Assembly (NCBI RefSeq): GCF_027257155.1
Contig: NZ_JAPWDU010000001.1
Coordinates: forward strand, 496,001 to 560,000
DNA from: Cerasicoccus sp. TK19100
GTDB lineage: Bacteria; Verrucomicrobiota; Verrucomicrobiia; Opitutales; Cerasicoccaceae
Reading direction: 5' to 3'
DNA: 64,000 nucleotides
Positions 11,147 through 52,329 of this stretch are shown in pieces. Below the pieces are notes generated by a model. The model ran no database searches, was not told where the DNA came from, and saw only the letters and a program-made list of their open reading frames with translations. Positions within the stretch are counted from its first letter, which is position 1; every line of letters begins with the position of its first letter. The position numbers and the translations under genes are program-made.

Positions 11147-11980
11147 ATGCCGCTCCTCGACGTTAAAGATTTAAAGATCAGCTTCCACGGCCGCGACCGT
11201 GTTACCGAAGCCGTCAAGGGCATCAACTTTTCCCTCGAAGAAGGGCAGACGCTGGCCGTCGTCGGCGAAAGCGGCAGCGGTAAATCCGTGACCGCTATGT
11301 CACTCACGCGGCTTTTGCCGGACCCGCCCACGTGCCGCATCAGCGGGGAAATTCTTCTGCGCGGCCAGGACGTATTAAAAATGCCCAAACGCGCCTTGCG
11401 TTCGATTCGCGGCAAAGAGATCGCCTACATTTTCCAGGAGCCGTCGACTTCGCTGAATCCGGTGTTCACCGTCGGCTACCAGATTGCCGAGGCGATCAAG
11501 CTCCACGTGCCGGAGGAAAAAGACATCACCGGTCGCGTCATTGACTCGCTGAAAAAAGTCGGCATTCGCGACGCCGAGAAGCGCTACAAGGCCTACCCGC
11601 ACGAGATGTCCGGCGGCATGCAGCAGCGCGTGATGATCGCCATGGCGCTGGCCTGCGAGCCCAAGATTCTCGTCGCTGACGAGCCCACTACCGCGCTCGA
11701 CGTGACCATTCAGGCGCAGATCATCGAGCTGCTCAAGGAGCTGCGCGAAAAGTCGAACATGTCGATCATCCTCATCACGCACAACTTTGGCATCATCAAA
11801 GGATTTGCCGACCAAGTGCAGGTGATGTTCCGCGGCGAAGTTGTCGAACACGGCCCGACTGACAAGGTGCTCAACGACCCGCAGCACGCCTACACCAAGG
11901 CGCTCATTGCGTGCATCCCGCGTCCCGGCGCCAAGCAGCGCCGCCTGACGACCATTGACCACGCAGCCTTGGTTGAATAA
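11147..11980 (+). CDS. Oligopeptide/dipeptide ABC transporter ATP-binding protein (OppD/DppD type)
   Basis: This cytoplasmic ATPase would energise peptide uptake. It has Walker A GESGSGKS, the Q-loop region [11 protein letters not shown], the ABC signature MSGGMQQR, Walker [13 protein letters not shown] and the switch His in ILITHNFG. The C-terminal tail [17 protein letters not shown] is the hallmark of the Opp/Dpp group. At 277 residues it is slightly shorter than usual and lacks the Cys-rich Fe-S end of many OppD proteins. The partner ATPase follows 113 bases downstream. No permease or binding-protein gene lies in the window. Confidence 0.9.
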
Positions 11981-12093
11981 TTCTCAATTGTCATGTTTCG
12001 ATTACCGATTTTCAATGATGACGATTCCGTTTGTAGAGCCTAACTGACCATTGAAAACTGACCTTCGATAATTGATAATTCCTTTTTCCCGCA

Positions 12094-12984
12094 ATGTCCG
12101 AATCCACTGAGTCCAATACCGACGACACGCCACTGCTCGAAGTCCGCAACCTCAAGGTCTATTACCCGATCCATGGCGGGTTAATGCGGCGCGTGGTGGA
12201 CCACGTGAAGGCTGTCGACGACGTGTCGTTTAAGATCAAGCAAGGCACCACCGTCGGGCTGGTGGGGGAGTCCGGTAGCGGTAAGACGACCATTGGCCGC
12301 AGCATCATCAAGCTTGCTCCGGTCACTGGCGGGCAGATTTTCTACAGCGGCGCAAACGTGTCACCAAAGACGACTTACCAGGAATCCGCGATCGGTGCCA
12401 CCGCCCAACCGCTGGGCAACATGGTGGACATCGGGGGCATGACTCGGAGTCAGTTTTTCCCGTTTCGCAAGAAGATACAAATGATCTTCCAGGACCCGTT
12501 TAACTCGCTCAACCCACGCATGACGATTGAGCAGATTATTGCGGAGCCGCTGGACATCCATTTCCCCGAGTGGGACAAGGCCAAGAAAACGGCCCGCGTC
12601 ATCGACCTGCTCGACAAAGTGAACTTGCCCGCCGACAGCCGTAGCCGCTATCCGCACGAGTTCTCCGGTGGCCAGCGTCAGCGTATCGGCATCGCCCGCG
12701 CCCTGGCTGTGGAGCCCGAGCTGATCCTGTGCGACGAACCGGTCAGCGCGCTTGATGTCTCGGTGCAGGCGCAAATCGTAAATCTGCTACAGGACCTCCA
12801 GGAGGAGCTTGGCCTGACGTATCTTTTCATCGCGCACGACTTGGCCGTCGTCGAACACATCAGCGACTACGTCCTCGTCATGAACCACGGCAAACTTGTC
12901 GAGCAGGCCAGTGCAGACGAAATCTACAACAACCCGCAGGACGACTATACTAAGAAACTCCTCGCCGCCGTGCCTACTTTGTAG
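12094..12984 (+). CDS. Oligopeptide/dipeptide ABC transporter ATP-binding protein (OppF/DppF type)
   Basis: This is the second ATPase of the pair. It has Walker A GESGSGKTT, FQDPFNSLNPRMT, the signature FSGGQRQR, Walker B LILCDEPVSALD and the switch His in IAHDLAVV. NPQDDYTKKLLAAVP at the end places it in the OppF/DppF group. Between the first beta sheet and the Q-loop it has an extra stretch of roughly 25 residues (around TYQESAIGATAQPLGN) not usual in the family. The paired ATPases probably serve a permease encoded elsewhere. Confidence 0.9.
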   Translation: MSESTESNTDDTPLLEVRNLKVYYPIHGGLMRRVVDHVKAVDDVSFKIKQGTTVGLVGESGSGKTTIGRSIIKLAPVTGGQIFYSGANVSPKTTYQESAIGATAQPLGNMVDIGGMTRSQFFPFRKKIQMIFQDPFNSLNPRMTIEQIIAEPLDIHFPEWDKAKKTARVIDLLDKVNLPADSRSRYPHEFSGGQRQRIGIARALAVEPELILCDEPVSALDVSVQAQIVNLLQDLQEELGLTYLFIAHDLAVVEHISDYVLVMNHGKLVEQASADEIYNNPQDDYTKKLLAAVPTL

Positions 12985-36749: not shown

Positions 36750-36760
36750 TGGCTAAGTCA
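36750..36760. promoter_or_regulatory. Candidate GntR-SBP operator, variant
   Basis: TGGCTAAGTCA, one base off the perfect TGACTnAGTCA palindrome. It lies about 112 bases upstream of the PEP-CTERM operon start. Confidence 0.5.
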
Positions 36761-37298: not shown

Positions 37299-40200
37299 AT
37301 GGAAAAATACCCACTCCGTCATCTGATGGCGGTGATATGCACTCTATCTTCTCCGCTGGTTTGTCCGGCGTTAAATATGTTGGACAACCCCGGCTTTGAG
37401 TCCGGGTTGTCGTCTTGGTCAGGCATTAGCTCTGAATCTACAGACGCTTACGAAGGCAGTTTGGCCGGTTGCATCAACCAGAATACCTGGTGGCGTCTCG
37501 CGAGCCAGGCTGTTGAATGTGATCCTGGACAAATTGTTAATTTCGGTGGCTACCTGAAGACTGAAAGCATCGTGTCAGGATCAGCCGGCATACGCTTGAA
37601 GTTTCTGGATGCCAGTGATCAGACAATCGAAACTTGGCATGCCGGCTCTTTGTCCGGCGATACGGGCTACAGTCTTTTGCAGGAGAATGTCGTCGCTCCG
37701 GCGGGAACGGATACTGCCAAGCTCGAACTCTATGTCGGTAAGAGCACCTCAACATTGGGCTACGCGTACTACGATAGTTTGTTCGTGGACGTGTTCTCGC
37801 ACAAAGATATTTTGTTAAACACAAATGGCGGATTTGAAGAGGGCTATGATGATTGGACAAAGGGTCATGCAAACCTGGTGACCGGCAGTGATGCCTATAG
37901 CGGAGTTAATGCTTCCAGCCTTCTACATGGAACCTTCTGGAAGCAGTCCTGGTATGAATTTTCCTGCGATCCGGGTAAGGAGTATGCAATTTCCTTTGCT
38001 GCGGCGACTGTGGACGTGACATCCACAGCGAGCTATCAGATGCGCTACTACGATAACAATGGTGACTGGATTGCGACGGATGGTTTGCTGAGCCTTGATG
38101 GCACGAATGACTACGCGCTTTACTATGCTGATGGGGTTGTCCCACCCGCTGGTGCCGTGACGGCTCGTTTCTTGTTTGCCGCGTCGAAACCCGGAAGTGG
38201 GATGTCTTACTTGGATGATTTGGTGATCAGTACTGACGCGGATGGCCTCAGTGCTTCGCCTGGTTTTATCGACCAAGATTTGGTGAACGTGATACCCGAT
38301 CCCGGGATGGAAGGAACGCTGTCGGAGTGGCCGGGCAATGTAACTGCTGATACAACAGAAATCGTTGCGGGAACGCAGTCGGCTCGCTTTACCGGGCATT
38401 CATTCTTTAAGGCTTACGCGCATGACTTGATCCCGGCTACGGAAGGCAAATATTACTCGATGTCGGCTAATGTGAAAATTGAAAATGTGGCCATTGCTCC
38501 ATCGTTGATCTTTCGCTTCGTCGCTGCCGACGGCACGACGGTTCTCGATAAGTCGCCCAGCATTATTGGCATTGAGGGCACGGCACCGTTTCGCGAATAT
38601 AACGGCAGCTATGTTCTTGCACCAGCGGGTACTGCTTACATTGAGCCAGTACTGTCTTTCCCGAAGCTCAATCCAGGTGCCTTGCTTTGGCTCGACGAGG
38701 TCTACATCAACGAGTCGCAAAATTTGCCGGTGCGGCTGGTGCCTACCTATGAGTCGCTTAGCGTTTATGTTAGCCGTGACGCTCAGTTGAGTGGTGAAGT
38801 TGCTCACATCTTTTATCGTGAGTCCGGTGAGAGCATCTGGAACGAGGCCTACGAGCCGATTTATGACCCGGAGCGTGGAGAATATCGTGGCAGCATTGTA
38901 GGGCTATATGAAGACACGGACTACGAAGTGCAAGTTGTGCTCGAGTCTGGTGGCACCGCTATTGAAGAGGCAGGCGCAGCTATTAGCACCTGGTCTTCGA
39001 CGCCGGTCATTGCGCAGACGCTCTCGGTTGCGAGTTTGTATTCCGGTGGTCAGCTGTTGATTGAGGATATGCATGGTGCCCCGGATGGCTGGATAAAAAT
39101 CACCGGTACTGGCGCGAATGATATTGATGGCGGTTATGCGAATGACGTGGCCTTGTTGGTATTAAACAGCAGCTACCTGCTATTTGAAAATATCGAGATC
39201 GAAGGCGGCAGGTTGCATGCCGTGCAGGTAAATATGTCTGACCAGATTCGCCTCGTGAACTGCGAGATGTCCGGCTGGGCGCGCTCTCCCAATTATACGG
39301 ATGGCAAATACTCCTACGAGACGCAGGCCGATCTGAATGCTGACAAGCCGATTAACAAAGATGCCGCGGTACATCTCTACGGAAGCCAGCGCGTTACCAT
39401 CGACCGGTGCTACATGCACGATCCGCGGCTGGGTGCTAACAATTGGGAGGGGAGTAATCACCCAGCCGGGCCAACGGCACTTTATGTTCAGAATTCAACG
39501 CCTGGTAACGGCGATCATTTACGTGGCAATTTTGTTGTTCGTTACAATGACATGGTCGGTAGCGATGAGCTGCGCTGGAATGACGCGATCGAAGGCGAGA
39601 ACAATAACAGTAAGTTCGGCTCAGTGGCCCGCGATTCCGATATCTATGGTAACATGCTGGCGTTCGGAAATGACGACGGAATCGAACTCGACGGCGGGCA
39701 AATGAATGTTCGCTTCTTCGGTAACCGCATCGAGAGCTGTTTCGTCGGCCTGAGCTTGGCACCTTGCGTGGTGGGGCCGTCCTATGTGTATCGGAACCTA
39801 CTTTTCAACTCGGGGGATGATCGCGGCGCTCGTTTTGCGGTAGTTAAGCTTGGTGGTGGCAGCACCTATTCAACTGGCAAAAGCTTCTTCTTTCACAACA
39901 CGATTTACTCTTATGGTAACGGCATTACCGGGGTCGGTTTTGGTAATGACGCCAACCGAAGCATGTTTCTCGGGCGCACGCGCAACAACCTGATTCACTC
40001 GCTTTCAGACACGACTCATTGGGGGCGCACGATTGCGGATTCAGAGCAGAACCCGTGGAACGATTTTGACTACGACAATCTTTCCAACGCCGGCTTAAGC
40101 AGTGCGATCGTGGAGTATGCGTCTGGGCAGGAAGCCAATGGCATACTCGACGACAGTCCGGTATTTATAAATGCCGCCGTGGGTGATTTTCGCCTGGATG

Positions 40201-40637
40201 CCAGCTCTTCGGGCGTAGATGACGGCGTTGCCTTGTTCAACTTTGCAGATCAATATCAGGCTGGCGCTCCCGACCAGGGTGCCTACGAGCAGGGGCAAAG
40301 TTCGCTGTTTCCCATGCGTCCTATGGATGTCTCGGCGGACAAATACTCCCTTGAGCTTACGGCTGTAGCTGGTGGTAGTTCCACGCCGGTTAACGTTACA
40401 TTAACGACGGGTGCCATTGGCTCGTCGATTGGCTACACGGTGCGCATGAATGATACGGTTGATTGGCTCAACGTTAGTCCAAGTAGCGGCGTGCTAAATT
40501 CTTCCAGCACGCAGGTCCTGGCATTTTCAGTAGATGCCTCTGGTCTCAGCACTGGTGATGTAATGAAGGCTGCCGCATTGATTAAGTTCGACAACGGCTT
40601 GTCGGTTCCGGTCACCGTGAAAGCGACCATACAGTAG
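37299..40637 (+). CDS. Secreted multi-domain parallel beta-helix protein, paralog 1
   Basis: The 1112-residue exported protein has a signal peptide (YPLRHLMAVICTLSSPLVCPA). Three carbohydrate-binding-like beta domains follow (each opening like NMLDNPGFESGLSSW, to about residue 470). A fibronectin-III-like segment comes next, then a right-handed beta-helix (about 600-980). The end is a BACON-like domain (VDWLNVSPSSGVLNSSS). The helix contains the acidic cluster NDDGIELDGGQMNVR at residues 791-805, which is repeated in the paralog at 47505. Beta-helix proteins of this size are often polysaccharide lyases or hydrolases, but no known catalytic signature is evident. It has its own terminator. Confidence 0.82.
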   Translation: MEKYPLRHLMAVICTLSSPLVCPALNMLDNPGFESGLSSWSGISSESTDAYEGSLAGCINQNTWWRLASQAVECDPGQIVNFGGYLKTESIVSGSAGIRLKFLDASDQTIETWHAGSLSGDTGYSLLQENVVAPAGTDTAKLELYVGKSTSTLGYAYYDSLFVDVFSHKDILLNTNGGFEEGYDDWTKGHANLVTGSDAYSGVNASSLLHGTFWKQSWYEFSCDPGKEYAISFAAATVDVTSTASYQMRYYDNNGDWIATDGLLSLDGTNDYALYYADGVVPPAGAVTARFLFAASKPGSGMSYLDDLVISTDADGLSASPGFIDQDLVNVIPDPGMEGTLSEWPGNVTADTTEIVAGTQSARFTGHSFFKAYAHDLIPATEGKYYSMSANVKIENVAIAPSLIFRFVAADGTTVLDKSPSIIGIEGTAPFREYNGSYVLAPAGTAYIEPVLSFPKLNPGALLWLDEVYINESQNLPVRLVPTYESLSVYVSRDAQLSGEVAHIFYRESGESIWNEAYEPIYDPERGEYRGSIVGLYEDTDYEVQVVLESGGTAIEEAGAAISTWSSTPVIAQTLSVASLYSGGQLLIEDMHGAPDGWIKITGTGANDIDGGYANDVALLVLNSSYLLFENIEIEGGRLHAVQVNMSDQIRLVNCEMSGWARSPNYTDGKYSYETQADLNADKPINKDAAVHLYGSQRVTIDRCYMHDPRLGANNWEGSNHPAGPTALYVQNSTPGNGDHLRGNFVVRYNDMVGSDELRWNDAIEGENNNSKFGSVARDSDIYGNMLAFGNDDGIELDGGQMNVRFFGNRIESCFVGLSLAPCVVGPSYVYRNLLFNSGDDRGARFAVVKLGGGSTYSTGKSFFFHNTIYSYGNGITGVGFGNDANRSMFLGRTRNNLIHSLSDTTHWGRTIADSEQNPWNDFDYDNLSNAGLSSAIVEYASGQEANGILDDSPVFINAAVGDFRLDASSSGVDDGVALFNFADQYQAGAPDQGAYEQGQSSLFPMRPMDVSADKYSLELTAVAGGSSTPVNVTLTTGAIGSSIGYTVRMNDTVDWLNVSPSSGVLNSSSTQVLAFSVDASGLSTGDVMKAAALIKFDNGLSVPVTVKATIQ

Positions 40638-40729: not shown

Positions 40730-42067
40730 TTAGTTCGGGCTGTACTCGCCATTGACCTTTATGATCGTTCTCGCGGCCGACGCTAGTTCGTCCAAGCCGC
40801 TTTTTATATCAAGGTCTTCCTCGATTATTCGCTGTAGGCCTTTCAAAACGAAAGCGCCGGGAAATGGTGGCTGGAGATTGAAGTCCGTGGAAATCTTACT
40901 GATCTCGGCAGCGAACAGGGAATCCCGTGGGTCGTCCAAGTTTAAAGATTTGAACGCGGAACTCCTTCGGATTGGAATGTTGTGCTTTTGTTGGCCGATG
41001 AAATCCTGAACCTCTTCGGACAGCATTGCCTTAACGTATTGTTTCGCCAAGTCGGGTGATGCGCAGGATTTACGCACGCAAATCAAATCCGTCGCTTGTG
41101 CAGTTGAGTCCACCCCTCCATCAAATAGCGGTAGCGGTGCGGTATCCCAGTCGTCATGTCCAGCCCGAAGGATGAAGTCCATAAAGTGCCTGCCGCCGAG
41201 ATACATGGCTGCGCCGCCATTCATGAATGCCATGTGGTAGGTGGCGTCTGGGGAGTGGACTCTTTCTACTCGAGCGCCCAGATCACGAAACAGTTCCAAA
41301 CCGCGCAAGACTTCAGGGCTATCCAGGGTAACGGGGTCTTCCTCGCCTGGTGCAAAGAGCCGGCCCCCCGCGCGCAGTATGAAAACCATAAGTAAATACT
41401 GGGCGGCGCTCCAGTTGATGAGTCCGCTTTTGGGCAGCACTTTCTTTAGTGCCTCAACGCTATTGATGAAGTCGTCCCATTTCCAGCCTGCGCTTGGCAA
41501 AGGGATACCGGCCTTTTTGAACATGGAAGGCCGGTAGAAAATGACGCGTGGAGAAAAGGCGAATGGAATGCCGACCATCCGTTGGTTGACTTCAAAGGGG
41601 CGAAAGGGCTTCTCGAAAAACACACTGCGATCAGGGTAGCATTCTTCAAAGATTGGAGAGAGGTCCATGTAGCTGTCAAACTCGGTTAGCACATGGCTGG
41701 TGGTCCGCAGCTCAAGCATTCCCCGCCGAAACGCAAAGGTGCTTCTCAACCCGGGGATGTAGCCCTCGATCATTGAAAGCAGGTCTGGGATCCATGGAAA
41801 AAACTCTACGGGATTATAAACGCAGATGTTTTCCGCGAGTACCCTCATATGCCAATTTTCTTGCACAAAGGTGCCCTTGCGCGAGTGGGAATAGAGCACG
41901 CCATCCTGGCACAGGGATTCGACGGCTTGCTGCACTTTCAGGAAGGAAACTCCAAGTTGCTCAGCGATTTCTCGAGCGGCAGCAATCCGTTCGCCGGAAT
42001 GAATTTCTCGGTTCTCGAGCATATTTAAGATATGATCGCGGACAACCTGCACCTTATTTTTAGCCAT
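40730..42067 (-). CDS. GntR-type DNA-binding domain fused to a sugar-ABC-type solute-binding domain
   Basis: From the ATG at 42067 the protein has 445 residues and no signal peptide or membrane segment. Residues 1-75 form a GntR winged helix (SGERIAAAREIAEQLGVSFL, then VQQAVESLCQDGVLYSHSRK and GTFV). The remaining ~365 residues read as a type 1 extracellular sugar-binding protein: PRVIFYRPSMFKKAGIPLP, WKWDDFINSVEALKKV, VTLDSPEVLRGLELFRDL and MNGGAAMYLGGRHFMDF. Such domains normally sit in the periplasm; here one appears to serve as cytoplasmic effector sensor. It is transcribed away from the pilin-leader gene, with candidate operators between them, suggesting autoregulation. Repressor or activator is not known. 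Confidence 0.88.
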   Translation of the reverse strand: MAKNKVQVVRDHILNMLENREIHSGERIAAAREIAEQLGVSFLKVQQAVESLCQDGVLYSHSRKGTFVQENWHMRVLAENICVYNPVEFFPWIPDLLSMIEGYIPGLRSTFAFRRGMLELRTTSHVLTEFDSYMDLSPIFEECYPDRSVFFEKPFRPFEVNQRMVGIPFAFSPRVIFYRPSMFKKAGIPLPSAGWKWDDFINSVEALKKVLPKSGLINWSAAQYLLMVFILRAGGRLFAPGEEDPVTLDSPEVLRGLELFRDLGARVERVHSPDATYHMAFMNGGAAMYLGGRHFMDFILRAGHDDWDTAPLPLFDGGVDSTAQATDLICVRKSCASPDLAKQYVKAMLSEEVQDFIGQQKHNIPIRRSSAFKSLNLDDPRDSLFAAEISKISTDFNLQPPFPGAFVLKGLQRIIEEDLDIKSGLDELASAARTIIKVNGEYSPN

Positions 42068-42111
42068 GGAAAATACCTCTACATCAAAGACATAGGGCAT
42101 GACAAGGATTT

Positions 42112-42190: not shown

Positions 42191-42201
42191 TGACTAAGTC
42201 A
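42191..42201. promoter_or_regulatory. Candidate GntR-SBP operator, perfect palindrome
   Basis: TGACTAAGTCA, perfect 5-bp arms around one base. It lies 67 bases upstream of the ATG at 42269, and about 125 bases from the regulator gene on the other side. Confidence 0.65.
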
Positions 42202-42268
42202 GAGCGATGCCGATAATGATTTGCATAATAGCAGTCAGCTTCATACTGAAAACCCCTCGCTGTTGACC

Positions 42269-45200
42269 ATGCCCCGGACCCCAAAAGTAAGTAAAAGTAA
42301 ATCTGGTTTCGCACTGGTGATCGCATTATCGCTCATGGCGTTCATGTTTATGCTCGCTTTGGCCATTGCGACGATGGCGCGAATTGAGCTGACTACAACC
42401 ACGCTGGACAATGCCCAAACTGAAGCTCGTGCAAATGCCCGGCTCGCGCTACAAGTGGCCATAGGTGAGTTGCAGAAAGCCGCTGGTCCGGATCAACGAA
42501 TCACTGCCACTGCAGATATCTTTTCGGATCAGGCAACCGGCATCCAATCGCCTTACTGGCTTGGTGTGTGGGATAGTGATATTGAGGACTGGGAAACTTT
42601 GGATGCGGACCAACGCCTTGCTCAAGCAACGTGGCTGGTGAGCGGCCAGAATAATCCTCGGGTCAACAATCAGTTGGATCCGAAGTTTAATTTGGACGCG
42701 GTCCCGGCGAAAGAAAAAGTAACTTTAGTGCATCACTCAGGCAGTCCTACTCCGGATGAAGTCGTTGTCTTGAAGGATGAAATAGATGGTGGGGCAGGGC
42801 GCTACGGGTACTGGGTTGCTGATGAAAGCCAGAAGGCGCGAGTTGATATGGTGGATGAATATCACGATGCGAGTGATCATTTTGAAAAGACGATGTCATC
42901 GCAAGGTGTCAATCGATCGGGTATAGAATACCTTGAGTTCTTGGAGAATTACCCGGCCAACCAAGAGCGGGCTAAAAACTTCGCTGATCTTTCATTGGCA
43001 GTGGTCACTTCGCAAAGTGACGAGCAGCAGATGAGTCAGCGTTTAATTGACGAGCATTTTCATGCGCTTACCCCTTGGTCGACTGGGCTGCTTGTGGACG
43101 TCAAACATGGCGGACTCAAGCGCGACTTGACGCAAGCCTTTGAGTATCGGCATATTTTCGATGAGCACTTTGTTCCCTTTGATGAAACGGACACAAGAAA
43201 TGAAGATGCTGATGGCGAGCCGGTAAGTCCGGTCGAATATGTAGAGAACCTTTACTTCATCGAGGACTCGGCTCTCACAGCCAATGGCTTGAATAATCCA
43301 AGTATCACGACCAGCGGCCCCAACTGGAGTATCTTGCGCTCATACTATCGCCAGTATATTCCTGGTTCGAGAAGCCCTAAGTTTCATTACAACAAGGAGG
43401 AGCGGACGGGGATTGAGTCTAACCTCCTATACTCGATGGACATCGCCGAATACAATGAGCTGCAGGCCGACGTTCCGCCCTACTTGCAGGGGCTCTTTGA
43501 TCTGGAGAATTCAAACTCGAACACTAACACCACCAACTATCGCAAATACACCGGCTGGTATCATTACCATCCCGACTATTCTTCTCGTCCGGGGCCTGCT
43601 GGTAAGCCCTATCAGACGGTTCCCAGTGATTTAGGCACCGAAGGCAATGGCGCGACCAAGCTCATCAGTCCCGTGTCGGACAACTATCAGTTGCAAAGCT
43701 GGCTCGGCCCGATCATTTCCCGTTTGCAGCTTAGCTTTGGACTGCAGGAAGGCAAATATGGCCTGGAGTTAGTTGTTAAGCCGGTGATGGCGCTTTATAA
43801 TCCATACAATACGGACATCACCATTGAGGGTAACCTTTCTGCGATAGGTTGGAATTTGAACCCGATCATCACTATTGATGTGGATGGTCGCGAGTTAACT
43901 GAGCCGGTTTCTTTTGGGCTGCGCGAAGTCATGCCAACCAACAACCAAGGGCGTCTATCCTACCGAATATATAGTGAAGATGATGCCGAAGGTAAATATG
44001 TGACGATCAAGGCGGGAGAGACGCGCTACTTTGGGCCGAACGTAATGCATCCCGATTACGATGATCGTCGCTCGGGTGCTGGCCCGGACTCTGGAGTCTA
44101 TCTAATGTGGGCCGACCTGGATGCGGATGGTAACATCGTCGTGGACCAGAATGGCCAAGTTGATGTTTCGCAAAACCAGGACCAAGTCCGCATGACCAAC
44201 TATGAGCCGGGCGGTGGCGGATTCATTGCTCCGCTTGAGTTGTCTTACTACAGAAATCAAAATAAGAGTGCGAGTCACCGGCCAAGGATCAATGGCGTTA
44301 CGCAGCTCGAGCGATACTTTGACGGCAACTATGGTGTCAAGCCCACGCAGAAAAGGGACTGGAACTTTACCCCGGAAGAGTGGAATGATTTAAAAAAGCT
44401 CACTGAATCAGTGACCGAAACTGACGCGGAAGGCAACGTAACGACCACTCCCAGAGGCTTTAATTTTGAAATAGCATTAGAGACAGATTTCGGTTCCGGT
44501 TACAGTCTGAGTTATGCCGGTTCGGTGGACCTGATGGCGATCAACAAGATGTTCGCTGATGTTGATTCCGCGCAAACACTAGTCGGAGTGAATCGGTATT
44601 TTTCATCGCTTGCGGATGCCACTAACCAAGACCAAATCCTGTCGGTAGGATTTTGGCTGAAGACGACAACGGAGAATAAGGAGCCTTGGCGAAATTTAAT
44701 CGATTCTAACATTCGGGCCATTGCCGCCAATAGCGAGTGGGATGGCTTCGATCTGGATAATGGCTACAAGATACTGAGCACTTATGCGACCGAGGATGCT
44801 CAAGGCGGTCACGGCGTTTTGAGTAATTCTGCTGCGGAAATACAACTCAATGACTTGGATCGCGCCGACGGTTTTTGGGGCAATAGCATTGGGGCTCAGG
44901 GGCAGACTCGTGTCATCCTTTTTGACCGACCTCGCACACCACTGCTTTCCCTTGGAAATCTGCAACACGCGAATCTTGGGCGGTATAACTTTGACCCAAC
45001 CTACATGGCGGGAAACTCTTACGCGAATGTCCGCATCCCGTTGGATCAAACCTCGACAGAAGAGCATCAGGCCTGGGTTTATTACAATGATGAGAATCAG
45101 TTGAAGGACTATGAGTCATTCAAAATTTTCGACACTTCTTATCTGATTAATGAAAAGCTATGGGATCGATATTTTTTCTCGGGCTTAACGGCTGACGTGG

Positions 45201-46123
45201 ATGAAGACGATTTGGAAGCATTTAAGCGCGGTCAGCCGATGGCGGCAAATCAGCGTTATCGCTACATTGAAAGCAATCGTGAATTAACGGCAGCGGTCAT
45301 GGATGAACGAGCTACGGATGACACGTTGTTCCAGAGTTTGGCTGCAAACTTGGAAGTCATTGGAGCCTTTAATGTAAACTCAACCTCCGTCAAAGCGTGG
45401 AAAGCCGTGTTGGCCGGAATGTCTCAAAGCGAGCTCCCTTATTTCGATGGCGATCTCGGAAACTTGGGGGAGGCGATTAGCATTTCCCGGTTCACCTGGC
45501 CTTACCGTGGCTATGTAAATTTGGCCGATGGAAGTGGAGCGGAAAACTTCTGGAATGGCGTTCGGGAAATTGACGAAGTGGAGTTGGACAACCTGGCTCA
45601 AGCGATCGTAAATCAAGTGAAGTTGCGTGGCCCGTTTTTATCCCTCAGTGATTTTGTGAACCGCTCGCTTGCCAATGACGAAACGGGAAAGTCGGGTCCT
45701 TTACAGGCTGCTTTGGATGATGCGATTCTTGGGTTGAACACGCAGGCGAAGCTTAACCCTTTTTCAGATGAGGCGGCCGATAGCATTTCTGGCGACGGTT
45801 TTTACGACGTCTTTCCGGAAACGAATATGCAGGCTGCAGGTTTCCCTGGTTATGTGCTGCAAGGGGACCTTCTGCAAAGGCTCGGCCCCACGATCACGGT
45901 TCGTGGTGACACTTTTCTCGTCCGTACTTACGGCGAATGTGTCGACCCAATCACCGGCGAAACGCAGGCTGAAGCCTGGTGTGAGGCCGTCGTGCAGCGA
46001 ACCGTTACTCCGGTTGACCCCGATCCCAATAATGTGGAGTCGGAAACTATTTACCCAAGCAGCCCCTTCGGCCGCCAATTCGAATTGGTCAGTTTCCGCT
46101 GGCTAAAGGAAAATGAAATTTAA
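42269..46123 (+). CDS. Giant pilin-leader (PilX/Verru_Chthon-A-like) exported protein
   Basis: The 1284-residue protein opens with a type IV prepilin-like leader: SKSKSGFALVIALSLMAFMF, then a hydrophobic helix, ARIELTTTTLDNAQTEAR and a helix with LALQVAIGELQKAAGPDQ. The small residue before Phe and the Glu in the following helix fit prepilin processing. The very long C-terminal part is a beta-rich body of unknown fold. Proteins of this shape with GPDQRITA are frequent in Verrucomicrobiota and resemble the A protein of the Verru_Chthon cassette. B, C and D partners are absent here. The ATG at 42269 is preferred over an upstream TTG. Confidence 0.7.
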   Translation: MPRTPKVSKSKSGFALVIALSLMAFMFMLALAIATMARIELTTTTLDNAQTEARANARLALQVAIGELQKAAGPDQRITATADIFSDQATGIQSPYWLGVWDSDIEDWETLDADQRLAQATWLVSGQNNPRVNNQLDPKFNLDAVPAKEKVTLVHHSGSPTPDEVVVLKDEIDGGAGRYGYWVADESQKARVDMVDEYHDASDHFEKTMSSQGVNRSGIEYLEFLENYPANQERAKNFADLSLAVVTSQSDEQQMSQRLIDEHFHALTPWSTGLLVDVKHGGLKRDLTQAFEYRHIFDEHFVPFDETDTRNEDADGEPVSPVEYVENLYFIEDSALTANGLNNPSITTSGPNWSILRSYYRQYIPGSRSPKFHYNKEERTGIESNLLYSMDIAEYNELQADVPPYLQGLFDLENSNSNTNTTNYRKYTGWYHYHPDYSSRPGPAGKPYQTVPSDLGTEGNGATKLISPVSDNYQLQSWLGPIISRLQLSFGLQEGKYGLELVVKPVMALYNPYNTDITIEGNLSAIGWNLNPIITIDVDGRELTEPVSFGLREVMPTNNQGRLSYRIYSEDDAEGKYVTIKAGETRYFGPNVMHPDYDDRRSGAGPDSGVYLMWADLDADGNIVVDQNGQVDVSQNQDQVRMTNYEPGGGGFIAPLELSYYRNQNKSASHRPRINGVTQLERYFDGNYGVKPTQKRDWNFTPEEWNDLKKLTESVTETDAEGNVTTTPRGFNFEIALETDFGSGYSLSYAGSVDLMAINKMFADVDSAQTLVGVNRYFSSLADATNQDQILSVGFWLKTTTENKEPWRNLIDSNIRAIAANSEWDGFDLDNGYKILSTYATEDAQGGHGVLSNSAAEIQLNDLDRADGFWGNSIGAQGQTRVILFDRPRTPLLSLGNLQHANLGRYNFDPTYMAGNSYANVRIPLDQTSTEEHQAWVYYNDENQLKDYESFKIFDTSYLINEKLWDRYFFSGLTADVDEDDLEAFKRGQPMAANQRYRYIESNRELTAAVMDERATDDTLFQSLAANLEVIGAFNVNSTSVKAWKAVLAGMSQSELPYFDGDLGNLGEAISISRFTWPYRGYVNLADGSGAENFWNGVREIDEVELDNLAQAIVNQVKLRGPFLSLSDFVNRSLANDETGKSGPLQAALDDAILGLNTQAKLNPFSDEAADSISGDGFYDVFPETNMQAAGFPGYVLQGDLLQRLGPTITVRGDTFLVRTYGECVDPITGETQAEAWCEAVVQRTVTPVDPDPNNVESETIYPSSPFGRQFELVSFRWLKENEI

Positions 46124-46843
46124 ATGACGTCCAAACCCGACATCTTTTTCCGACTCAGCCTTTGGCTGGCGATCCTTTGCGGTTTCGTGCGTGTGGACGC
46201 ACAGCAAAACGGTGAGCCCACCAAAGTTACCTTTAATACGCTTGCCTGGGATAGTGCCATTAAGGGCTTGTACTTTTTGGATGGTGAGAAGCGCGTAAAT
46301 GTCAATATACCGAATGGTGCGCCTTCAAGCACCTACGAAGCTCCTTCGGACACGCCGCTGATCTTTTATCGAGACACAGGCCAAGTTGACAAAGATGGTA
46401 ATCCGATTGGGGCGGCGCTTGGCTCTGTGGATCTTTCGAGTGCGACTAAGCCGCTATTGCTGATCTTTTTCGAGCAACCCAAGGCGGGGTCTACTTTTCG
46501 TATTGTGCCAATCGTCAATGAAGCACGAGAGAATACGAGCGAGATCTACCAGCTTCATAATATCTCAAGTCACGATATCATTGCTAAGTTTAATGATCAG
46601 AACATAACGCTGAAAACGAATAAGCCACTGACTATTCCTGCGCCGACTGTTGATAAGCCCAGCTTTGGTGTCATGATGGCAATTCAAATGGACGCGAAGA
46701 ATTCGGGTGATTGGCAAATGGTTTACAAGGCTTTCTGGCCATATCGAAAGGGGCGTAGCAGTCTGGTCTTTATTTCTGACCAAGAGGGACAGAAAGATCA
46801 GATTAATGTAAGGCGGTTTTACGTGCCGACACAGGAGATTTAA
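46124..46843 (+). CDS. Secreted partner of the pilin-leader protein
   Basis: The ATG directly abuts the preceding TAA stop, with AAAGGA as ribosome-binding site inside the end of that gene. So it is co-translated with the pilin-leader protein. The 239 residues begin with a signal peptide (FFRLSLWLAILCGFVRVDA). The body is beta-rich, with YFLDGEKRVNVNIPNGAPSS near the front. I recognise no family. Its constant position suggests a dedicated secreted or surface partner. Confidence 0.7.
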   Translation: MTSKPDIFFRLSLWLAILCGFVRVDAQQNGEPTKVTFNTLAWDSAIKGLYFLDGEKRVNVNIPNGAPSSTYEAPSDTPLIFYRDTGQVDKDGNPIGAALGSVDLSSATKPLLLIFFEQPKAGSTFRIVPIVNEARENTSEIYQLHNISSHDIIAKFNDQNITLKTNKPLTIPAPTVDKPSFGVMMAIQMDAKNSGDWQMVYKAFWPYRKGRSSLVFISDQEGQKDQINVRRFYVPTQEI

Positions 46844-46879: not shown

Positions 46880-46890
46880 TGACTAAGTCA
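46880..46890. promoter_or_regulatory. Candidate GntR-SBP operator, perfect palindrome
   Basis: TGACTAAGTCA, identical to the site at 42191. It ends 18 bases before the ATG at 46909, close enough to overlap promoter or leader. Confidence 0.6.
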
Positions 46891-46908: not shown

Positions 46909-47481
46909 ATGACATGGAACTTCATATCAATGCGCGCGGCTAAGGTTCGCGCGATCATCGTATTCGCAATGGCCATACTTTGCGGAGGTGCTGTTTGTGG
47001 GGATAATCTAATCATCAATGGTGATTTTAACGAATCCTCAGATGGGAATGTCGCGAACTGGAGATGCCCCGCCGGCAGCAGCTATACGCTAGTCATTGAT
47101 CGCGAGGAAAAACCCAATGGCGTCGAACGTAGCTTAAGGGTGGCTATTAATAATTCCGGAAAAGGCCTTGGCCAGATCACCCAGAAGTTTCCAGTCGAGC
47201 CAGATGCCAATTACCTGCTTGAGGGTTGGGTTATGTCGAATGGCTCCGAGCAAGGCTCGATCCAAATCAAACTTTACTCTGGCAAAGAGGAAATCGAGCG
47301 GATTCGAGTTTTATCCAGTGGTGCTGGCTGGGAGCGACTAACCAAACAATTTACGGCCACCAATGCTGACTGGGCTGAAGTTTTACTTCGCTTTAAGCAA
47401 ACGAGCAAAGAGATCGGGAATGAATTAAATTTTGCCGATATCCGGGTGACTCTAGTGCCCACAGAACCTGATAACTCCTAA
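46909..47481 (+). CDS. Secreted carbohydrate-binding-like protein, N-terminal domain only
   Basis: The 190-residue product has a signal peptide (VRAIIVFAMAILCGGAVCG) and a single jelly-roll domain beginning DNLIINGDFNESSDG. The domain closely follows the N-terminal domain of the next protein (NLVSNGDFESFKDG), with shared motifs such as GSIQIKLYSGKEEIERI against GFLQIKLYEGGKEFKRI. It therefore looks like a partial duplication, or a free binding domain. It precedes paralog 2 of the beta-helix family by 23 bases, and the two are probably one transcript. Confidence 0.75.
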   Translation: MTWNFISMRAAKVRAIIVFAMAILCGGAVCGDNLIINGDFNESSDGNVANWRCPAGSSYTLVIDREEKPNGVERSLRVAINNSGKGLGQITQKFPVEPDANYLLEGWVMSNGSEQGSIQIKLYSGKEEIERIRVLSSGAGWERLTKQFTATNADWAEVLLRFKQTSKEIGNELNFADIRVTLVPTEPDNS

Positions 47482-47504
47482 CTTTGACCTGCATTATATC
47501 GACC

Positions 47505-50387
47505 ATGAAACTCCCAAAATTTATCTACCGCAGAGGCAGTCTGCTGGCCATCATCACGCTACTGAGTGCAACCGCCCTGAGTGCGGCAAATCTCGTGTCC
47601 AATGGAGATTTCGAAAGCTTCAAGGATGGTCAGCCAGCGCAGTGGACGACATCGGCAAACACTGCGTCATTTGAGTATGATACTGCGAATAAACCAGAGG
47701 GTACTAAGGGCAGCCTGAAGGTCACCTGCACTGCTGCCGGTAGGGGACAGGGCCAGATTATTCAGAAAGTAAATGTGCCTCAGCCGGGCCTGTATTATGT
47801 GCAGGGATGGATTAATTCACCCGGGGCGACTCAAGGCTTTTTGCAAATTAAGCTCTATGAAGGAGGTAAAGAATTTAAGCGGATCGGCATCCGCGAGCCC
47901 GGCAAAGGCTGGGTGAAAATTGGTATGGAAATCGACACCCTCGGCGCTACTCAAATCGCCCTGTTGTTACGCTACAATCAAGCTGAAAGGAATGTCGGTG
48001 AGTCGCTGTGGTTTGCTGATGTTTCTCTGATTCCCGCGAGCGAGCGCGTTCGTGAAACGCCGACGATTGCCAACTTGGAAGCCGTGCCGACTTTTAACTC
48101 GATTGGCGTGTATGCAGATATTTCTGGAGACATGAGCGTGTCGACTCAGGGTCACATGGAATACCGGAAGAAAGGGGAGTCTGACTGGCGTTCGACACTT
48201 GGCGTTGTCTGGCATGGCGAAACCAAGCAAATGCGAGGCAGTTTGCTAAACTTGGCTGAGGATACGGAGTATGAAGCGAAGGTATGGCTGACGGATGACA
48301 CTATCGGTCTGATCTCGGAGCCGCAGATCGTATCCTGTCAAACCTGGAGCAGCAATACGCCTATTGGCAAAACGATTTATTTGGATCCAGGTGTATCCTC
48401 AGCGCCGCTTATTCTAAGCGAGAAAGGAACGCCAGATGCATGGGTACTCATCACGCGATCCTCCGAATCATCGTCGACGCTGGATGTAAAGAACGAAGCC
48501 GATTACGCGATCCATATTAAGGATTCCGCCTACGTCGTTGTTGAGAACTTAAGCATCAAAGGGAGCATTAAGGACGCAGTGCTGATTGAAGAGTCGAGCG
48601 ATGTGCGAATCCGCCGTTGCGATATTTCGGAGTGGGGGCAACCGGGCACTCTGACCGAGGTTTCGAATCCCAAGTGGGGCAGGGGGCCCCTCTATTTGGA
48701 CGACGATGGTAACCGGATTAACTTACAAGCCGGTGTCCGTATCCAGCGCGGAGCGCGCCGGGTCGTTGTGGAGGATTGCTTCATCCATGCGCCTCGTGGC
48801 CGCGCGAACAACTGGAGTGCTGGCCACCCGCTCGGGCCGACATCTATCATCATGTCGATGTCCGATGGTAATCATGTTATCCGAAACAATGACTTGGTCG
48901 GATCTGAAAACCATCGCTTTAATGACACCATTGAGGGCGCATATAACAATAAGGTTAATGGTGGTCCCTATCGCGACACCGATATTCAGGGCAACATAAT
49001 GTTCTTTAGTAATGACGATGGTATCGAGCTCGATGGCGGCCAAATGAACGTTCGGATGTTTAACAATTGGATTCAAAGCAGCCTGTGCGGCATTAGCACT
49101 GCACCCACGATCTACGGGCCTTCCTATCTTTTTCGTAACTTGATTGTGCTGGAAGGTGAAGAGCGCGGACATACGAATTTTGCCTTTAAGGTCGGTGGTA
49201 ATCGGACGCAGGAGCCGGGCATCAATTACATTTTCCACAACACCGTTTATAGCCACAGCAAAGCTCTTCGTGGAGGAAACTGGGGCAAGGGCCCGACTCC
49301 GATTCAGACGCGCAACAATCTCATTGCTCTGGGCGACATCCTATATCCGCAAATTGCTCAAGGCGACTTCGACTACGACATGTTGCGTCCTGGGGCGATG
49401 GATCCTGCTCGCGATGAGTGGCAGCAAAATGGTGTGGAAGGTGTCGAAGAGTTCCGTAATCGTACAGCCGGCGATTATCGTCTCTCGCAGGGTTCGCCGG
49501 CTTTCAATCGCGGCGTGCATCTGCCAATGGTCAATGATGGCTTTTCTGGTAGCGCGCCAGACCTCGGCGCATTCCCCGGCAATAGTGATGCGTTATTTCC
49601 TGTTCGAAATTCCGGACTGTCCGTGCTCCCGATGGTTGCGGCCATCGAGATGCTCGAGGGCGAAGGACCGACAAAGCATTCAGTTGTTGAGGTATCCGCG
49701 CCAACGGATCTAGGCAAGTCGTGGCGAGCGATTCCTAACTCTCCTTGGATTAGCGTTTCCCCTGCCAGTGGAGTTTGTGATGGGAGGCCACATCAACTCA
49801 CCATTAGCTTCAATGAGTCCAACAAGCAGATAGGCCCGATGGAGGGCGCAGTTACTATTCGCACAGACTCTGGTTATAATCGGACTGTATTCGTGAAAGG
49901 CAATGCTCACCCGGAATCAGCGCAAGAGTTTGCTGTTGTCGCGGCGGACCTGGAGCATTCTGGTTTTCAGATCGTTGAGAAGGCTGGTGCTCCAACCGCA
50001 TCGATTTTAAAAGCGCCCAGCGCCCGGGTTGAGGCGAATGCATCTTACATTAAGCTGCCTGTAGATATCGCTGAACCCGGTGTCTATTATTTGCACGCGC
50101 TGACCTATGTGCCTGGTCCCGGAGCGGCTGGTCACGATAGTCTGCGCCTGCAGATTGATGATGGAGAAATAACCTATTGGCCTTTCCGGAAAGCCTCGTC
50201 GGGAAAGTGGCAATGGCAGATCGCAGATATTTTTAAGGAAGAGTACCCGCAGAAAATTGAACTATCGAAAGGCAAGCACATGATTACGATTTGGGGACGG
50301 GAGAGCGAAACTGAGATTGCAAAATTCGTTCTGAGCCAGAGTCCGATTTCGCCAGAAGATGTTAGTGTGCCCATTGCCCGGAAGTAA
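47505..50387 (+). CDS. Secreted multi-domain parallel beta-helix protein, paralog 2
   Basis: The 960-residue exported protein (ATG at 47505) has one binding-like jelly roll, a fibronectin-III-like segment (AEDTEYEAKVW), a right-handed beta-helix and a BACON-like domain (SPWISVSPASGVCDG). A final galactose-binding-like domain follows (LHALTYVPGPGAAGHDSLRL). The cluster NDDGIELDGGQMNVR is at residues 503-517, identical to that in paralog 1; the surrounding helix is similar throughout (NNDLVGSENHRFNDTIEGAY against YNDMVGSDELRWNDAIEGEN). The exact activity is unknown, but the invariant acidic patch is the best active-site candidate. Confidence 0.82.
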   Translation: MKLPKFIYRRGSLLAIITLLSATALSAANLVSNGDFESFKDGQPAQWTTSANTASFEYDTANKPEGTKGSLKVTCTAAGRGQGQIIQKVNVPQPGLYYVQGWINSPGATQGFLQIKLYEGGKEFKRIGIREPGKGWVKIGMEIDTLGATQIALLLRYNQAERNVGESLWFADVSLIPASERVRETPTIANLEAVPTFNSIGVYADISGDMSVSTQGHMEYRKKGESDWRSTLGVVWHGETKQMRGSLLNLAEDTEYEAKVWLTDDTIGLISEPQIVSCQTWSSNTPIGKTIYLDPGVSSAPLILSEKGTPDAWVLITRSSESSSTLDVKNEADYAIHIKDSAYVVVENLSIKGSIKDAVLIEESSDVRIRRCDISEWGQPGTLTEVSNPKWGRGPLYLDDDGNRINLQAGVRIQRGARRVVVEDCFIHAPRGRANNWSAGHPLGPTSIIMSMSDGNHVIRNNDLVGSENHRFNDTIEGAYNNKVNGGPYRDTDIQGNIMFFSNDDGIELDGGQMNVRMFNNWIQSSLCGISTAPTIYGPSYLFRNLIVLEGEERGHTNFAFKVGGNRTQEPGINYIFHNTVYSHSKALRGGNWGKGPTPIQTRNNLIALGDILYPQIAQGDFDYDMLRPGAMDPARDEWQQNGVEGVEEFRNRTAGDYRLSQGSPAFNRGVHLPMVNDGFSGSAPDLGAFPGNSDALFPVRNSGLSVLPMVAAIEMLEGEGPTKHSVVEVSAPTDLGKSWRAIPNSPWISVSPASGVCDGRPHQLTISFNESNKQIGPMEGAVTIRTDSGYNRTVFVKGNAHPESAQEFAVVAADLEHSGFQIVEKAGAPTASILKAPSARVEANASYIKLPVDIAEPGVYYLHALTYVPGPGAAGHDSLRLQIDDGEITYWPFRKASSGKWQWQIADIFKEEYPQKIELSKGKHMITIWGRESETEIAKFVLSQSPISPEDVSVPIARK

Positions 50388-50496: not shown

Positions 50497-50507
50497 TGAC
50501 TGAGTCA
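50497..50507. promoter_or_regulatory. Candidate GntR-SBP operator, perfect palindrome
   Basis: TGACTGAGTCA, directly preceded by an inverted half site (TGAGTCAGC, 50488-50496). It lies 34 bases upstream of the oxidoreductase start at 50542. Confidence 0.6.
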
Positions 50508-51843: not shown

Positions 51844-52329
51844 GATCGGGCAGGTTGCGCTAAGTGTTTTCTAGGGTCGGAACTCAGTCTATCCAACTTG
51901 CGGATTGATTGGCCCGTTGTGCTGTGCGGGATAGCTTACTGCTGCTTTTGGGGAAATCGACGCAACGGTGGTGATTTGAGTAATAGGGACGCCCGAGCTC
52001 GTAGTGATCACAGCGGTACTCGATGCGATGTGACAAGGTATTCTTAGCCCGATTAGACGTCGGATTTGAGCCAACGGGTGTTTTTCGAAGATTTTGATTG
52101 CTCGTTATTAAGTAAAACGTTATAGCATTGACTGACTCTATAATTTTGCTGTCATTAACTTCAATCCCTCTCCCCTGACTTTAGTCTCGGTTCTTTGCGA
52201 TCAGCTTTTCAGCCCTTGATATAGATGGTCTTCGCAGGCCAGTTCTGAATCTGTCGGTATGTAGAAGTTCTCGGTGATAGTGACTGGACTAGTCATGTAT
52301 GTCTTTGAATTCATTTGAAACCTCAAATT
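51844..52329. other. Regulatory interval before the second carbohydrate cluster
   Basis: About 490 bases with no accepted gene. A minus-strand frame (51889-52074) is unsupported. The interval contains an AACGTT-centred site at 52114 and a degenerate TGACTGACTC word near 52129. It divides the two regulons. Confidence 0.55.
52114..52123. promoter_or_regulatory. Candidate LacI-family operator
   Basis: AAAACGTTAT. The enclosing 13-mer TAAAACGTTATAG (52113-52125) recurs exactly, in reverse orientation, at 62356-62368. It lies 206 bases upstream of the GH36-like gene. Confidence 0.55.

Follow-up and report, generated by a model that had tools for sequence, protein, structure and literature searches.

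What does a giant prepilin-like protein do in a cluster of carbohydrate genes? The question is raised by a 64,000-nucleotide stretch of the genome of Cerasicoccus sp. TK19100 (Verrucomicrobiota; 13 contigs, ~97% complete, 5.07 Mb), which we refer to as the window. An open reading frame at 42221..46123 (+) encodes 1284 residues from the ATG at 42269 to the TAA stop at 46121-46123. The product begins with a class III prepilin leader, MPRTPKVSKSKSG (42269..42307, +; predicted cleavage before Phe14), which is short and basic, has Gly at position -1 and Phe at +1 and is followed by a hydrophobic helix (FALVIALSLMAF). The initial annotation had described such a leader on a protein of this length, and both are present. 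It had also remarked that neither assembly ATPases nor minor pilins lie nearby; we found no other prepilin (PF07963) in the 64-kb window, so the statement is true locally.

Profile searches give little guidance to the identity of the giant. Pfam returned no match in either the giant or the secreted protein encoded behind it, and a search of PDB sequences with profiles of the two gave nothing useful. Among NCBIfam families, GspK (NF037980) reached 19 bits at the N-terminus only, against a cut-off of 130 bits, and Verru_Chthon_A (TIGR02600) scored weakly over the N-terminal part (16.9 bits; cut-off 332.3). The family profile matches the giant with 1097.8 bits, and 454 confirmed related stretches rule out an ordinary pilin or a chance open reading frame. 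The fold was obtained from a homologue of 1094 residues (L087) that is 35% identical to the window giant. Its AlphaFold model (mean pLDDT 85.5, pTM 0.88) aligns with GspK (3ci0 chain K) in VIA-align with Z 13.4, at 2.9 A over 238/280 residues, the next row reaching 4.7; Foldseek alone, applied to the giant, gave no confident match. The GspK match is spread over residues 47-1094 of the model, indicating a GspK core split by a large insert. As judged from this homologue's model, the giant is a GspK-fold protein whose pilin core is interrupted by a large beta-rich insert. Since the curated GspK score is not reached, we call it GspK-fold, or K-type, and do not file it as the GspK of a type II secretion system (T2SS). 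Gly(-1) and Phe(+1) are found in 21/21 copies from the same genome, and position +5 is Ile, Val or Leu in all of them, without Glu5. K subunits are known to lack Glu5 and to cap H-I-J-K filaments (PMC10628169). We therefore annotate the gene (42269..46123, +) as a putative giant modular K-type minor pseudopilin. The leader, for which a plain membrane anchor had been considered, thus belongs by this model to a GspK-fold protein. The proposal of a pseudopilus-like structure in a carbohydrate regulon stands in so far as the protein is pseudopilin-like; its membership of a GspK-fold family makes it a candidate for the tip subunit, rather than for an entire filament.

The modular build of the giant is apparent when the copies within the genome are compared (mean pairwise identities over 21 copies, with boundaries drawn from conservation and not from structural alignment). 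An N-terminal GspK core, residues 14-365 (42308..43363, +; boundary approximate), has 32% identity and opens with a long pilin helix, seen at residues 20-77 in the L087 model. A C-terminal core, residues 881-1284 (44909..46120, +), has 37% identity, with conserved columns that include the motifs GAFNVNSTS, RGPFLSLSDFVNR and FRWL. Between them lies a variable insert, residues 366-880 (43364..44908, +), of only 17% identity, which forms strands in the L087 model and ranges from 326 to 546 residues among the copies.

The secreted protein of 239 residues is encoded at 46124..46843 (+), its ATG starting on the base directly after the TAA of the giant. The model of this partner (pLDDT 90.1) predicts beta-sandwich domains behind a signal-peptide-like N-terminal helix at residues 7-21. 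The pairing suggested by the initial annotation proved to be general: a partner homologue directly follows the giant in 21/21 loci examined in the genome, that of the window included, starting close to the giant's end and often overlapping it, and one lies beside the giant in 67/77 loci from named Verrucomicrobiota. Moreover, giant and partner diverge together, since their distances within the genome are correlated (r 0.71, permutation p ~2e-4). The correlation with the partner is highest for the insert, although its alignment is uncertain (0.72 versus 0.56 and 0.59 for the other parts). By fold, the partner comes closest to the PepT2 ectodomain (Z 12.9) and to AlgF domains (8.6 and 7.8), matches that we do not take as indicating function; no sequence or fold match of insert or partner supports sugar binding.

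Gene order in other genomes points to the place of the giant in a filament. In seven Opitutaceae genomes with a single giant, it closes a pseudopilin operon, typically in the order G, G, H, I, J, giant, some ORFs being unresolved. The partner follows in five of these operons (L221, L222, L224, L225, L227), whereas none was called at L223 and L226 is poorly resolved; our ORF calling was simple, and negative calls at single loci are therefore soft. The orthologous operon of TK19100 (L191), a single G-G-H-I-J set in which G1, G2, H, I and J each find their best match in their Opitutaceae operon counterparts, has J as its last gene (I at L191:10612-11283, J at 11289-12308); a gene for a MenA-like prenyltransferase comes next. 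The gene following G-H-I-J is thus the giant in single-copy Opitutaceae, but not in TK19100. The K-less operon is also present in ten giant-bearing genomes (G229, G128, G164, G039, G048, G173, G149, G176, G102 and G001), whose giants, 1 to ~25 each by approximate count, are located elsewhere. In a further genome (G045) no giant lies in the operon region, though the operon was incompletely called, and two others (G131, G211) kept only G1-G2 there. We found no motor or secretin within the core G-H-I-J operon; weak B/C/D-like hits occur in it, separate from the giants.

These observations bear on the possibility that the giants no longer enter any filament, being periplasmic or surface proteins whose prepilin leader serves purely for anchoring and whose partner is a binding protein. 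The distance of the giants from the core operon, the lack of assembly genes near them and an insert far larger than anything in GspK would all fit such proteins. However, it is the N-terminal pilin helix (50% identical among the giants of the genome) and then the two cores (32-37%) that are best conserved, not the insert (17%), and in intact operons the giant occupies the position of GspK. We therefore consider a role outside filaments improbable.

The genome does have machinery to process and assemble pseudopilins. A complete T2SS operon is found elsewhere (G-H-I-J-K-L-M-D-E-F, with its own ordinary GspK of 397 aa), together with 11 T2SSE-type ATPase matches and one prepilin peptidase. The search for secretion genes and a prepilin peptidase that the initial annotation had proposed is thus answered in its favor, and an absence of pilus or secretion machinery is ruled out. 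The T2SS also opens a second reading, in which the giant would be a locus-specific secretion receptor: as a K tip, it would recruit the enzymes of its cluster in the periplasm and export them by way of a T2SS-type channel, the partner acting as cargo adaptor. The GspK fold and the complete T2SS are compatible with this role, the genes of the cluster encode large secreted enzymes, and T2SS minor pilins have been described as cargo loaders (PMC12075869). Against it, the T2SS already has an ordinary GspK, and the gene-order partners of the giants belong to a different pseudopilin set, one without secretin. We regard the secretion receptor as rather unlikely, though as the most serious competitor of a filament tip. 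For the same two reasons, we favor on balance glycan capture over enzyme export.

The window giant appears to be controlled with its carbohydrate cluster. An operator-like palindrome, TGACTAAGTCA (42191..42201), lies upstream of both the giant and a divergent gene (40730..42100, -) for the presumed regulator (GntR-SBP), in which a GntR winged helix and a solute-binding-protein domain are fused (PF00392 + PF01547). This protein looks like a cytoplasmic regulator with a transporter-derived (ABC-type), presumably sugar-sensing domain. A second copy (46880..46890) precedes the gene of a CBM_4_9 protein (46909..47481, +; PF02018), which is followed by a gene for a secreted beta-helix protein (47484..50387, +; PF13229). 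A third, TGACTGAGTCA (50497..50507), precedes an oxidoreductase gene. Besides 42191, perfect or one-mismatch sites are thus found at 46880 and 50497, and also at 36750 and 36941, the last two being one-mismatch sites near a beta-helix/BACON gene (37299..40637, +; PF19190, weak PF13229). This amounts to 8 strand matches versus 0.45 expected. Of the four sites of the palindrome TGACTNAGTCA in the 5.07-Mb genome, three lie in the window cluster, so that membership of the giant in this regulon, as first suggested, is well founded. The oxidoreductase is of the GFO/IDH/MocA type; a melibiase-like protein is also encoded in the cluster, and a rhamnosidase-like protein, GH94 and a LacI regulator follow farther along. 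An adjacent cluster has its own giant cassette, that is, giant and partner (C1:561180), and a different palindrome, TATAACGTTATA, with eight genome sites (<=1 mismatch), seven within 26 kb at that cluster. The TATAACGTTATA sites at window positions 52113, 62357 and 63651 mark the start of this separate LacI-type regulon, which extends beyond the window end and includes the adjacent cassette. Because the palindrome scan covered many words, we used only its two strongest results, each confirmed genome-wide; their distribution identifies two neighboring clusters with separate palindromes and separate cassettes. From their positions, we infer the respective palindromes to be binding sites of GntR-SBP and of the LacI protein.

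The initial annotation had pictured a single pseudopilus in one regulon, and this part must be abandoned. A profile search found 24 giant loci in the TK19100 genome, most of them intact, one short (967 aa, C3:216366). Of 289 genomes of the phylum, 74 have a match; the window protein is one of 24 copies that belong to a family of giant GspK-fold subunits widespread in Verrucomicrobiota. Its nearest relatives are in Cerasicoccus arenae (56%, best segment) and in two further genomes, G048 (52%) and G131 (47%); an orthologue is kept at ~50% identity in other genera. One copy has decayed, with two stops yet an intact partner behind it (C2:350584; L196:7809-12085), and another is a remnant of 523 aa (C1:216390; L195:10483-12054). 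The same genome has ~27 scattered PulG/GspG-like profile matches (e.g., C5:416499, C6:464951, C2:736053), and 46 small prepilin sites do not cluster near the giants (7 within 15 kb versus 6.5 expected).

The surroundings of the cassettes suggest a link to polysaccharides. For 15 cassettes of the genome, carbohydrate-enzyme domains (glycoside hydrolase, polysaccharide lyase, phosphorylase or carbohydrate esterase) occur in 12/30 immediately adjacent genes versus 2/30 random genes (Fisher p 0.005), both random positives being CBM domains; by locus, the numbers are 9/15 cassettes versus 2/15 random regions (p 0.02). Neighbor classes were assigned unblinded, with Pfam names in view, and one random region, which overlapped a giant locus, was exchanged for another. 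The other 6/15 cassettes have no counted enzyme domain in the immediately adjacent genes, and some cassettes (L059, L069) do not resemble carbohydrate loci. Sulfatases show no clear enrichment as a neighborhood marker of the giants. One may ask, then, whether selfish spread or passive duplication largely accounts for the cassettes, their place in variable carbohydrate regions being accidental, as their high copy number, the two degenerate copies and the cassettes away from carbohydrate genes could suggest. Such an origin would leave unaccounted for the locus-specific palindromes upstream at two loci, the co-divergence of giant and partner and the orthologue kept in other genera, and we consider it very improbable.

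The giants resemble several described systems without coinciding with any. The K subunit of H-I-J-K tips is the closest, sharing the fold, the missing Glu5, the prepilin leader and the place after J in intact operons. The giants differ from it in being ~3-4 times larger with a variable insert, in their many copies away from assembly genes, in their secreted partner and in a score far below the curated one. Like the Verru_Chthon cassette protein A, they are Verrucomicrobiota prepilin-like proteins of great size (~1300 aa) and multiple copies, with a similar N-terminal helix. The Verru_Chthon_A cassette has adjacent genes B, C and D; none of these lies beside the window giant. There is no full-length profile match, no copy in the genome exceeds 28.5 bits, and the C-terminus is different: in hhalign with true members (L157, L158), only 72 N-terminal columns align. 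We therefore reject this identity. True Verru_Chthon_A above the cut-off occurs in only 2/145 sampled genomes (G066 and G078, with L157 and L158), each with 22 first-look candidates, which may reflect a second giant prepilin family that expanded in parallel. In working principle, the giants can be compared with PilB/PilC of Streptococcus sanguinis, among the modular tip pilins known to bind glycans (PMC10628169), and with the Kil tips of Myxococcus, where four interchangeable tip complexes serve one pilus (PMC12075869). In these, pilins with grafted modules sit at the filament tip, and Kil has several alternative tips on one core, as we propose for the giants; but they involve other pilin classes, few tips and no tie to nutrient regulons. 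Finally, Verruconatronum alginivorum, of a related order, has 67 PulG-like homologues and an alginate-induced pseudopilin, so that there, too, pseudopilin genes come in many copies and have a link to alginate degradation or are induced along with it (PMC13274419); the available part of that description calls them PulG-like and does not include giants, partner cassettes or a K-less operon. In the open literature, to which our search was confined, we found no description of a giant K and partner cassette or of the K-less core operon.

We therefore suggest, as the somewhat probable explanation, that many modular K tips, each regulated at its own locus, can be exchanged on a common filament core. 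The giant would be a K-type minor pseudopilin at the end of a type IV pilin-superfamily filament, in the capping role that GspK has within H-I-J-K tip complexes, with a variable beta-rich module grafted into its pilin fold and a dedicated secreted partner, made together with it, that probably binds the module. A local regulator, presumably GntR-SBP, would turn on giant and partner with the polysaccharide-degradation genes. The prepilin peptidase would process the giant, which would then be mounted on a core built from the single K-less G-G-H-I-J set, with the T2SS ATPase or a T4P ATPase as candidate motor. A carbohydrate locus that carries a cassette would thus supply the shared filament with a tip of its own; the tips are probably ligand-binding, and most likely capture polysaccharide at the cell surface. 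In favor of a tip are the GspK fold, the 21/21 copies without Glu5, the giant after J, the K-less orthologous operons, the conservation of the partner and its co-divergence, the conserved core versus the variable insert, the carbohydrate neighbors, the separate palindromes and the presence of machinery; precedents exist for a K cap and modular tips (PMC10628169), for exchangeable tips (Kil; PMC12075869) and for an alginate-induced pseudopilin in a relative (PMC13274419). Against it are the core operon without motor or secretin, the 6/15 cassettes without adjacent counted enzymes and the unlinked giant of two single-copy genomes (G149, G176), which implies that unlinking does not need many tips.

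The recognition and uptake of large polysaccharides in Verrucomicrobiota are poorly understood. Twenty-four cassettes with a giant cap-type protein, often near polysaccharide genes, together with a single K-less core operon, suggest interchangeable, food-specific tips. A K-less core with scattered, separately regulated K cassettes also leads to a prediction: the tip produced should track the sugar offered. If this explanation is true, the giant prepilin-like proteins, a large family missed by Pfam, would acquire a role. More tentatively, some two dozen giant K tips, interchangeable on one shared pseudopilus core and each induced by its substrate under a separate carbohydrate regulon together with a partner, may constitute a polysaccharide-specific filament system that could parallel the recognition role of SusC/D in Bacteroidota.
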